Positions 38,327 to 41,218 of a stretch of DNA of 44,501 bases are shown here, in pieces; the stretch's first letter is position 1; each line of letters begins with the position of its first letter. Origin of the DNA: Akkermansiaceae bacterium (lineage in GTDB: Bacteria; Verrucomicrobiota; Verrucomicrobiia; Verrucomicrobiales; Akkermansiaceae). Under the pieces are notes generated by a model. That model searched no databases, was not told the origin of the DNA, and was given only the letters and a program-made list of their open reading frames with translations. The stretch lies in assembly GCA_947462535.1 (NCBI GenBank), contig CANHPN010000014.1, forward strand, positions 1-44,501. The letters are read 5' to 3'. The position numbers were made by a program, and so were the translations under genes.

Positions 38327-41218
38327 ATGGCCGAGCCTGATCTTTTCTCCCAAGCCCCCACCCCGCAGGACCGGATCCGCGAGCTGCGGACCCAGCTCGA
38401 CCGCCACAACCGGCTCTATTACAGCCAGGCCGAGCCGGAAATCTCCGACGCGGAATATGACCGCCTGTTCCGCGAGCTCGAATCCCTCGAAGCGAAGCAC
38501 CCCGGGTTTTACGACCCTAACTCCCCTACCCTCCGCGTCGGTGGCGCGCCGATCGAAGGCTTCAAACAGATCCACCACGCCGTCCCGATGCTCAGCATCG
38601 ACGACGTCTTCGAACTCAGCGCCGAGGGTGTCGAGAAAGCCGGAGCCACCTGCCCCGAGCAGGAACTCATCGATTTCTACCGCCGCCTACAGAAAAACCT
38701 CAAACGCGACGACGTCCCGGTCACCATCGAGCCCAAGATCGACGGCGTCGCCGTTTCCCTACTCTATCGGGACGGAAAACTCGCCTATGCCGCCACCCGC
38801 GGCGACGGCGAGACCGGCGACGACGTGACCCAAAACGTCAGGACGATCCGAACAATCCCGCTGGAGCTGCATGCGGCGGAGCGAGTCACCGACGAAGTTG
38901 ACGTTGGAAGTCTCCTTCCTTACATTCCCAGACATGGACGGGATCATTCAAGCACAGCAACTCGCGGAACGCCTTCGCAAAGCCCGGCGGAAAGCCTGGC
39001 TCAGCGGCTTAAGGCTGACCTCGGAGCAAGCGATGGAGCAAATGTTCAGGAACGGCTCCGACAGGAAGCCCAATCCGTGGTATCATGGGCCGAAGAAACC
39101 GGACACCTCCTCGATTCGGAGAGATTCGGCGGATTCGCCGCTGGTTACCCTTCGTTAGGCGGTCAATCCGAGCACGTCGTCTTCCACCTCGCAAAGGTCG
39201 GCCGGGTGATCAAACTCACGATCGCCCCCGCGTTCGGAGCGCAGGAAGACGGCCTTGCCTACCTGCGGAATCTCAACGCGGCCAATCGGCTTTTCGCCGA
39301 TGACATCCGGTTCCACGGAATCCTGCGAACCGCCAAAGGCCCGTCGCTCGTGACCTCCCAGCCGTTCATCGATGGCACCGAGCCGAACTCCGCCGAAGTC
39401 GCGTCGTGGTTCAAATCCAACGGCTACCATTCCACCGGCCACAACCGCTGGAAAAACGACGAGTCCGGCGTGGAGATCGCCGACGCCCATATCGGCAATC
39501 TCATCAAAACCGCGGACGGCGAACTGGTCCCGATCGATCTCCAAGTCATCGATCCGGGCGAAGCCCTTCCGTCATCCGAAATTCAAAATTCAAAATTCAA
39601 AATTCCAGCAACGCTGGAAGTCCGCGGCGAGATCTTCATGCCTAACGAAGCCTTCGCCGCGCTAAACGCCGAGCGCGACGAGGCAGGCCTGCCCACCTTC
39701 GCCAACCCCCGCAACGCCGCCGCCGGCACGCTCAAACAGCTCGACCCGAAAATCGTCGCCAAGCGCCCGCTCGCCTTCCTCGCCCACGGTCTCGGCGCAT
39801 ACGAAGGCCCGCCGCTTGAAACCGAGCACGAATTCTACGATTTGTTAGCAGAACTCGGCATCCCGCAAAACCAGCCGATCCTCAACGCCAACAATCTCGA
39901 CGAGGTGCTCGAAGCCGTCGCCCGCATCAACCGTGAGCGCCACACCCTCGACTACGGCACCGACGGAGCCGTCATCAAAGTCCTTGACCGCGCCGAGCGC
40001 GAGCAACTCGGCTTCACCTCCCGCGCCCCGCGCTGGGCCGCCGCCTACAAGTTTCTCCCCGAGCAAAAGGAAACCACGCTCAACAACATCATCATTCAGG
40101 TCGGCCGGACTGGCGTGCTAACACCCGTCGCCGAGCTCACCCCCGTCCTCATTTCCGGCTCCACCGTCTCCCGCGCTACGCTGCACAACCAGGACGAAAT
40201 CGACCGCAAGGACATCCGTCTCGGCGCGACCGTGCTGGTCGAAAAAGCAGGCGAAATCATCCCGGCCATCGTCAAGGTCATCCGCCACGCCGAGGGCGCG
40301 CGACCTTACTCGCTCTACGACAGCGTCCACGGAAAGTGCCCTTCCTGCGGCGGACCTATCAGTCAGGAAGAAGGCTTCGTCGCTTGGCGCTGCACGAATT
40401 TCCAATGCCCTGCCCAGGCGGTCACCCACATCACCCACTTCGCCTCCCGCAAGGCGCTCGACCTCGAAGGCCTCGGAGAAATCGTCGCCGAGGCGCTCGT
40501 CCGCCACGGCCATTGCCAGACGCCGCTCGACCTCTTCCGCCTCGACGAGAAAACCCTCGCCAACCTCAACCTCGGCACCGAGGAATCCCCGCGCCGCTTC
40601 GGCGAGAAGAACGCCGCCAAAGTTCTCAACGCGCTCGAAGCCGCGAAATCGAAGCCGCTCCACCGCTGGCTCTTCGCCATGGGTATCCGGCAGTTAGGCG
40701 AATCCGCCGCCAAAGAGCTTTCCCGCCTTCACCGCGCGCTGGGCGAAATCACGGACTCGCCTATTCTAGCGGAACTCCTCCGCGACACCCGCCCCGACGC
40801 GAAAAAGAAGAACGAACTTCTCGCGAAATACTCGGTCACCGGCGACGTCGGCCCCGCCGTGGCGGAAACCATCGTCACCTTCTTCAAATCGGAAGCTGGC
40901 CAACACGCCCTTGCCCGTTTCAAGGAACTCGGCATCGATCCCATCTCGGACAACTATCTGCCCATCGCCGCAGAAGCCGATCTCTCCGCACTGCCGCTCG
41001 CCGGAAAAACCTTCGTCATTACAGGCACCCTAAGCATCGACCGCGACACGATGAAGGAACTCATCGAGTCCAAAGGCGGCAAGGTCAGCGGCTCCGTTTC
41101 CGCCAAAACCAGCTTTGTCCTCGCCGGCGAAGGCGGCGGCTCGAAGCGCGACAAGGCCGAAAAACTCGGCGTCACCATACTCGACGAGGCGGCGCTCCAA
41201 GCGCTGATCGAGTCCTAA
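38327..41218 (+). CDS. ligA: NAD-dependent DNA ligase with a large in-frame insertion
   Basis: 963 residues, versus about 670-720 for normal LigA. Ligase parts in order: Ia domain ([36 protein letters not shown]), NTPase core with active-site EPKIDGVAV (Lys near residue 136) and [14 protein letters not shown], then after the insert [32 protein letters not shown] and [12 protein letters not shown] fold ([31 protein letters not shown]), Cys4 zinc finger CPSCGGPI...WRCTNFQCP (about 670-693), helix-hairpin-helix ([15 protein letters not shown]), BRCT (about 891-963, [20 protein letters not shown]). It seals nicks in replication and repair. Residues about 183-427 are extra (see separate entry). 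No stop codon interrupts the frame and the ligase motifs are intact, so a functional protein is possible. Confidence 0.93.
38873..39607 (+). other. Insertion in ligA resembling a polyvalent-protein kinase domain
   Basis: About 245 codons between ligase strands IPLEL and LEVRGE. From about 39040 the translation reads like a compact domain: [38 protein letters not shown] (with a candidate ATP-contacting Lys at residue 296), [23 protein letters not shown], then [18 protein letters not shown] (catalytic-loop-like DAHxxN, D386, N391) and VPIDLQVI (D404, metal-binding-like). That order matches, from memory, the kinase domain of phage and mobile-element polyvalent proteins (Kinase-PolyVal). The first 130 bp have a second frame with coding character (ATG at 38934, [20 protein letters not shown]), suggesting the native start of the insert was in another frame. 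AT-rich heptamers follow on the right. Confidence 0.7.
39582..39606. repeat. TTCAAAA heptamer run at right edge of the ligA insertion
   Basis: TTCAAAA occurs three times in tandem (39582-39602), followed by TTCC, and encodes IQNSKFKIP in the ligA frame. The unit is 7 bp, so a gain or loss of one copy would shift the ligase frame. It resembles the AT-rich intergenic repeats of this region. Confidence 0.85.

Follow-up and report, generated by a model that had tools for sequence, protein, structure and literature searches.

What is a segment of more than 200 codons, read in frame, doing in the middle of an essential DNA ligase gene? The question is raised by ligA, the gene for NAD-dependent DNA ligase, in a 44,501-nucleotide stretch of contig CANHPN010000014.1 (assembly GCA_947462535.1, Akkermansiaceae bacterium), the whole of which we refer to as the window. 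An original prediction, made from the letters of this DNA without database searches, had proposed that the ligase carries a kinase-like domain. Our analysis revealed a Kinase-PolyVal domain inserted in frame within the adenylation domain, a second open reading frame (ORF), named S, that is nested across the N-terminal part of the kinase and constrained at the protein level, a patchy distribution of the insert with a history unlike that of the ligase around it, and relatives of the kinase in other, unrelated enzymes.

As had been proposed, the ligA frame is continuous over 963 codons, with LigA domains recognised by Pfam on both sides of the insert. The protein possesses the adenylation, OB, Zn, HhH and BRCT domains of a LigA together with the catalytic lysine, K137, which is kept in all 70 rows of a 75-row alignment that have this column. 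The predicted limits of the insert, residues 183-427 between two neighbouring parts of the adenylation domain, proved correct to within a few codons when judged by the loop of relatives: from the same anchors, insert-free relatives have 13-44 residues at this site (for example SIPLKLPAPHPSL in genome G061; G, C and L numbers are our handles for genomes, contigs and loci) and outgroup ligases have 13-15. The window genome (G000) is a draft of 104 contigs and 2.82 Mb, estimated to be 95% complete. Within it, we found neither a second NAD-dependent ligase, the only other match being to the kinase part, nor an ATP-dependent ligase (PF01068). Since no other ligase was found in a genome of this completeness, the insert-bearing LigA should have to ligate, and the suggestion that it is functional with its added domain is the one that we retain, compensation by a second ligase having been rejected. 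An AlphaFold model of the full-length protein (mean predicted local distance difference test, pLDDT, 77; predicted template-modelling score, pTM, 0.44) leaves the orientation of the domains unfixed, and in Foldseek it matches LigA structures across the insert, for example 7k72_B (template-modelling score 0.83 on the target, 569 alignment columns). Among the matches to the Protein Data Bank (PDB) listed for this model at E≤0.001 were ligases, BRCT parts and ligation or replication complexes, and no kinase.

The assignment of the insert to the kinases of phage and mobile-element polyvalent proteins, which the original prediction had based on motif order, was borne out by Pfam: Kinase-PolyVal (PF18762; cut-off 27 bits) was detected at residues 246-404 with E 3.4e-11 and 43.8 bits in the whole protein, and with E 2.3e-12 and 47.6 bits in the insert alone. 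Features described for this family (PMC5512222) are a Glu before strand 2, a Gln in the last strand of the N-lobe and an insert between the His and the Asp that are conserved for phosphotransfer. Both family-specific residues, E282 and Q345, whose positions in the fold were read from a model, are present in 38 of 38 whole copies of the insert, as are the catalytic Lys, Asp, Asn and DFG-type Asp (K296, D386, N391 and D404). The C-terminal subdomain of the kinase has been lost, with the model stopping just past the DFG-like Asp, and structural matches cover only the first part of known kinases, such as residues 2-169 of DAPK-1. A model of the kinase alone has a pLDDT of 85 and a pTM of 0.80; its alignment to DAPK-1 with VIA-align gave a Z of 8.4 over 135 residues at 3.9 Å, a Z of a size that can be common, and its best match among viral models was a phage polyvalent protein (E 2.6e-13). 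Of 226 usable pairs, the 45 closest have a ratio of nonsynonymous to synonymous change (dN/dS) of 0.04-0.40 in the kinase. Because the catalytic residues are invariant in all whole copies and dN/dS is low, the kinase looks active.

The nearest relatives found outside ligases are solo genes (L175 and L087, approximately 51% identity), followed by the C-terminal domains of polyvalent proteins on viral contigs (L181, 47%; L182, 43%), which also carry LPD3, with a sub-threshold MuF_C, or LPD37 domains. Searches of the kinase against PHROGs, NCBIfam, PADLOC and PDB sequences gave no match, and nor did a tblastn search of a phage collection. We also noted a set of solo Kinase-PolyVal genes of 235-242 residues (L096-L100) with a common N-terminus (MSPHEPSHAAAGIPLQ and similar) in several Verrucomicrobiales genomes.

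Across the part of the kinase module that precedes the Pfam domain, the DNA is constrained in an unusual way. In the 45 closest pairs, residues 212-245 show little synonymous change (printed dS values of 0.04-0.31, most of them 0.04-0.06, with the rest zero or not computed); in the same pairs dS in the ligase parts reaches 1.4 or more. The low synonymous change is explained by the overlap of a second reading frame, S, in the +1 frame. Over ligA as a whole, variation is greatest at the third codon position; in the S region it is greatest at the first position, which is the wobble position of S, over approximately 50 codons. Third positions varied less than first positions in 56 of 918 windows of 24 codons, all of which overlap S, and in 53 of 932 windows of 16 codons, one of which lies outside it. 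A profile of S was then used to score real sequences against shuffles that preserve the ligA-frame protein: the real +1 reading outscored every scored shuffle (200 made) in 38 of 38 LigA copies and in all but one of the 19 other copies; the one that did not, L090, belongs to another kinase clade. As the profile was trained on eight LigA-type S peptides, the LigA scores are partly circular and those of the 19 other copies are not. The second frame is therefore under constraint at the level of protein, as expected of dual-coding DNA. An S starting with ATG could be extracted from 37 of 40 rows (G033 and G092 are cut by contig ends and G078 has GTG). S is present in each of the eight LigA copies that were retrieved from outside the genus, its profile matches the corresponding place in solo genes, viral polyvalent proteins and copies of the enzyme NspC, and in seven NspC copies examined the codon positions flip in the same way at the equivalent position with respect to the kinase. 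S-type peptides matched no Pfam family above cut-off (of four searched, two gave nothing and the other two reached E 0.0044 at best) and no PHROGs family (best E 0.43). We consider it very probable that S is a translated protein.

S is preceded by a promoter-like site. The arrangement TTGA[CA], 17 nucleotides, hexamer, 7 nucleotides, start codon is found in 37 of 41 rows (38 whole and three partial copies), being absent from G017, G018 and the two rows cut by contig ends; the hexamer starts with TA in 36 of these 37, and the start codon is ATG in 35 and GTG in two. In all 37, T is the last letter of the ligA codon that precedes GAC, even though the amino acid encoded varies (V in 17, I in 12, L in six, F in two) and just 15% of such codons across these genes have a final T, from which it follows that the DNA word, and not the residue, is what is kept. 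An independent scan returned TTGACG-17-TACATT at 38898-38926 as one of two matches, with 0.5 expected. Given the gap of 7 nucleotides between the -10-like hexamer and the ATG, the mRNA of S is predicted to be leaderless. Judged by eye, the spacing is equal to within a base in L175, L181, L227, L228 and the OppD-type locus L305, with weaker -35 words in L228 and L305. In five of eight LigA copies from outside the genus the site is likewise present.

How widespread is this arrangement? We searched 73 genomes of the genus, of which 69 gave a ligA match and four gave none; five with fragmentary ligA (G003, G010, G013, G024 and G093) were left out before counting. Among the 64 scoreable genomes, the insert is whole in 38, partial in three (G006, G018 and G019) and absent from 23, and 34 of the 38 whole copies have the kinase in a single frame with both ligase parts (for G033, G066 and G092 the left side lies beyond a contig end). 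The original prediction had called an in-frame insertion in an essential gene rare; the insertion is indeed in frame, but it is common in the genus, and at least five other enzymes have been entered by the kinase family. A lineage-specific extension of the ligase, which had been allowed for, is not what we observed, since the length of LigA differs among relatives, the near relative G061 lacks the insert and the kinase profile is detected. G061 falls in a small unresolved clade with the window genome, G001 and G011, at 92-94% identity to the window's ligase. On a tree of the ligase core, which stands here for the history of the hosts without an independent marker, insert presence changes state 21 times, at least 13 of these changes being forced by starred branches, and the starred sister pairs G077/G071 and G083/G059 differ in insert presence. 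Empty loops can keep traces: that of G034 retains TTGAC, a TAC hexamer (with the spacer now 14) and the start codon as scars, and that of G086 retains ATTCAAA heptads. Among the partial copies, G006 and G019 have lost most of the kinase and keep S, with a shorter end in G006.

Scanning genome contigs with a profile of the kinase alignment identified 42 loci, 41 in ligA and one solo, all in metagenome-assembled genomes (MAGs) of Akkermansiaceae, Luteolibacter and other Verrucomicrobia. Outside the genus there are at least eight LigA copies, spread over two further genera of the family and a single genome that belongs to a different family, and the Kinase-PolyVal family as a whole occurs in at least 123 of 386 genomes of the order, at least 20 of 387 of the phylum and none of 14 controls. 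The insert-bearing Akkermansiaceae genus probably lives in fresh water. In one MAG (G033), ligA genes with and without the insert coexist (C41 and C196; L016 and L080), which may reflect a strain mixture or two alleles, and in G088 a second, divergent LigA (C90, L137; a 698-residue frame, 37% identity over the matched part) accompanies the kinase-bearing one.

The kinase and the ligase that surrounds it do not share a history. Although the LigA-borne kinases of the genus form one clade relative to solo genes (support 99/97), approximately unbiased (AU) tests on 31 taxa, which left out seven truncated rows of the 38, showed that the kinase data reject the ligase topology (log-likelihood difference 578, p 9e-33) and that the ligase data reject the kinase topology (1071, p 1e-23). 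Of 13 kinase splits with support of at least 95, nine conflict with equally supported ligase splits and four are shared. The same is visible in pairs of genomes: the window genome and G001 are 99% identical over ligase residues 531-650 and 64-65% identical over kinase residues 246-350, and G014 and G016 have 98-100% nucleotide identity over ligase residues 531-800 and 75% over kinase residues 246-300 (the end of the G016 gene is in another frame, so its identity over residues 801-963 is not meaningful). A quick tree places the kinase of G131, a genome of another family, within the clade of the genus, below starred branches; the kinase of G355, from another genus, is nested in the G005/G014 group. 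Vertical inheritance with losses alone is rejected by the AU tests and the identity profiles; on these comparisons the insert is best described as an old, patchy cassette, and it has almost certainly been exchanged non-vertically. Active mobility is a more tentative proposal, which we hold to be possible and a little doubtful, as the tree and identity data show exchange and do not separate such mobility from homologous recombination.

The insert DNA is single-copy in the window assembly, apart from short matches of the ATTCAAA repeat at its 3' edge, and a multi-copy element was rejected on this ground; only one weak, stop-containing kinase relative was seen there, on C52 (19354-19845, L007), perhaps a dead solo copy. 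Heptads of the ATTCAAA type stand at the right insert junction in several LigA copies, and short matches to the repeat occur at four further sites of the window genome, including C15 and C23.

The same kinase family was identified within NspC (TIGR01047, two copies checked), PurL (TIGR01857) and a hydantoinase/oxoprolinase-family protein. In GlgB the kinase precedes the GlgB match near a contig edge, and may be an insertion or an N-terminal fusion, and in two OppD/DppD-type ATPases it is found at the C-terminus. These counts of host enzymes are lower bounds. Among the matches listed for PurL of the genus, a whole insert is present in nine of the 70 genomes with a match; the window's own PurL is without it. 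A second PurL site, before EEWLIQFKNETHNHP, is occupied in G090, G008 and G092 (L306, L307 and L308) by a divergent kinase (E of approximately 1e-14 to 1e-15 with its own profile). In PurL, the eight copies examined have in common a nested +1 ORF that differs from S and gives a weaker positional signal. Three polyvalent-type Kinase-PolyVal genes of another clade (L060, L090 and L300) seemingly have a nested +1 ORF of their own, '..M.SAGNLG.QSP.YPESWRG', and nested partners may thus be a general feature of the kinase family. The coordinates of all features in the window are collected in Table 1.

Table 1. Position of the ligase parts, the kinase, S and associated sites in the window.
Feature	Coordinates	Strand	Basis or remark
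ligA, NAD-dependent DNA ligase with in-frame insert	38327..41218	+	963 aa; only ligase gene found in genome
Ligase part 1: Ia domain plus beginning of adenylation domain; KIDG motif with catalytic Lys137	38327..38872	+	Pfam
Insert between 'IPLEL' and 'LEVRGEI' of adenylation domain	38873..39610	+	Short loop in insert-free relatives
-35-like hexamer TTGACG	38898..38903	+	TTGA[CA] with 17-nt spacer in 37/41 rows
-10-like hexamer TACATT, ending 7 nt before S start codon	38921..38926	+	
ORF S, nested in +1 frame relative to ligA; 74 aa and stop codon; leaderless mRNA predicted	38934..39158	+	Codon-position flip, synonymous-shuffle test, conserved start
Helical N-terminal part of kinase module, ligA frame, aa 212-245, dual-coding with S	38960..39061	+	
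Kinase-PolyVal domain, aa 246-404	39062..39538	+	Pfam PF18762
Glu282 (SEH), family-specific ATP-site Glu	39170..39172	+	38/38
Lys296 (VIKLT), ATP-binding Lys	39212..39214	+	38/38
Gln345 (SQP), last N-lobe strand, family-specific	39359..39361	+	38/38
Catalytic loop D386-A-H-x-x-N391	39482..39499	+	D and N 38/38, H (His388) 37/38
Asp404 (PIDL), DFG-Asp equivalent	39536..39538	+	38/38
ATTCAAA heptad repeat, right edge of insert	39581..39605	+	Sole occurrence in window
Ligase part 2: remainder of adenylation domain, then OB, Zn, HhH and BRCT	39608..41215	+	Pfam; Foldseek matches LigA across insert

We are highly confident of the anatomy and the constraint as described. The reading that in our view best accommodates them is that a two-gene cassette of phage or plasmid descent has come to occupy a surface loop of an essential ligase. 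Its first gene, a minimal protein kinase read in the ligA frame, would be made as an internal domain of LigA, around which the ligase would fold and still ligate; its second, S, would be expressed independently, with a promoter of its own and a leaderless mRNA. The kinase would be an active conflict enzyme acting on some target and S its cognate regulator, either an inhibitor or antitoxin or an activating partner. Lodging in an indispensable gene would provide the cassette with expression and shield it from frame-breaking loss, and the cassette would spread between ligA genes by recombination, with occasional loss by in-frame deletion. We give such a protected conflict module about even credence. 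S may well regulate the kinase, because it is inseparable from the N-terminal part of the kinase, is preceded by a promoter-like site of its own and is left behind in two of three partial deletions; if so, an inhibitor is somewhat the likelier role, and otherwise S would be an activator, as minimal kinases may need a partner.

Several observations weigh against this reading. The third partial copy, in G018, keeps the C-terminal half of the kinase and has lost S. The promoter-like site is missing from three of the eight LigA copies outside the genus, as it is from G017, and eight PurL copies (L286-L291, L303 and L304) have TTGAC[AG] 19 nucleotides before an S-type start with no fitting -10, so that this promoter geometry does not hold generally. 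An open +1 frame is in itself ordinary, since 387-969 of 1,000 synonymous shuffles of LigA copies are as open, but GC content alone was rejected as its explanation because the encoded protein is conserved beyond such shuffles. The kinase model had no PDB match at E≤0.001 (best 1.8e-3; the 50 matches listed are all protein kinases). Plain homologous recombination between ligA genes would yield the same trees, and a Pfam scan of the cassette found no nuclease or recombinase domain. In G069 (L167, C3), the N-terminal part of the LigA-kinase gene lies in a separate frame, perhaps through breakage or a sequencing error. Finally, most of the sequences are draft MAGs.

Other explanations account for part of these data. 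The kinase might be a domesticated host defence, that is, a phage-derived anti-phage effector using LigA and other busy enzymes as platforms, with S as an off-switch until infection. Patchiness, allelic replacement and conserved catalytic residues would all be in keeping with defence genes; the kinase has no match in PADLOC, however, and NspC, hydantoinase and GlgB have no evident link to infection, so that we consider this idea rather unlikely. It is improbable that the kinase is a regulatory domain sensing or phosphorylating something that tunes ligation in cis, a possibility raised in the original prediction. Its place in the NAD-binding adenylation domain and the purifying selection on it would suit such a role, but near relatives have an otherwise similar ligase without it, and members of the family are found in five enzymes that are unrelated to one another, as well as at a C-terminus, as solo genes and in proteins of phages.

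The constraint in the +1 frame could instead mark a DNA or RNA element, such as a recombination site, a small RNA or a promoter, with no protein made, and a promoter-like motif is really present at the level of DNA. Variation at the +1-frame wobble position over approximately 50 codons, an ATG that is kept as the start in 35 of the 37 motif-bearing rows and recovery of the S profile in divergent phage and solo genes nevertheless make this a poor prospect. That the insertion is neutral or in decay, and merely accepted by a loop that allows it, would be consistent with the variability of the loop and the dispensability of the insert; passive filler would not be expected to show such constraint on catalytic residues and dN/dS, and this explanation is very unlikely. 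As for an assembly artefact or a pseudogene, the window does come from a draft in many contigs, but its ligA frame is intact, no other ligase was found, the catalytic residues are invariant, and the same architecture recurs in many genomes, including the single-contig assemblies G077, G083 and G170; the chance that remains is negligible.

It is an even question whether the cassette belongs to a new class of mobile elements, that of a 'protein-domain parasite' which sits in frame and does not splice. Such an element, comprising a minimal kinase and a nested leaderless regulator, would move between species, colonise loops and ends of unrelated Verrucomicrobiales housekeeping enzymes and be held in place by the host's need for the surrounding gene. 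Close analogues are inteins and homing elements, which are likewise inserted in frame in essential enzymes, are patchy and have gene trees unlike those of their hosts. Inteins, the classic example of mobile DNA in essential proteins, must splice out, whereas this insert sits in a variable loop and its phage-type kinase is predicted to stay in the finished enzyme, as members of the family do in several unrelated enzymes; an intein was rejected, as a Pfam scan of the window LigA found no splicing (Hint, up to E 5) or endonuclease domain. Toxin-antitoxin modules share with the cassette two overlapping genes, a mobile distribution and the survival of S after loss of the kinase in two of three partial cases, but here the putative 'toxin' would be fused into a host enzyme. 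The minimal effector kinases OspG and NleH similarly have a short fold without the usual C-terminal subdomain (with middling Z of 6.6-7.0), in a different lineage and setting.

By Pfam score and by its family-specific Glu and Gln, the kinase is of the same family as those of phage and conjugative polyvalent proteins, from which it differs in being an internal domain of a chromosomal housekeeping enzyme; as its other domains are those of LigA, the window protein is not itself a polyvalent protein. Iyer et al. 2017 (PMC5512222) described stand-alone versions of the kinase and suggested cassette-like recombination in Verrucomicrobium, and the part of that article available to us has no mention of a nested ORF or of insertion into host enzymes. 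In searches of the open-access literature, we likewise did not find insertion into host enzymes, exchange among them or the nested gene. The cassette could offer a direct handle on the role of polyvalent-protein kinases, on a small-ORF partner overlooked by gene callers and on how large domains enter essential enzymes harmlessly. A last parallel is the synthetic entanglement of relE in ilvA (PMC10359631), in which a gene nested in another frame is stabilised by selection on a needed gene. The nested second-frame gene is common to both, but that system is synthetic and this one natural, and here the kinase is a domain of the host protein and S is nested within that domain. Should the cassette work as we read it, it would be a natural case of gene entanglement, in which a conflict module is made hard to delete through the host's need for the gene around it.

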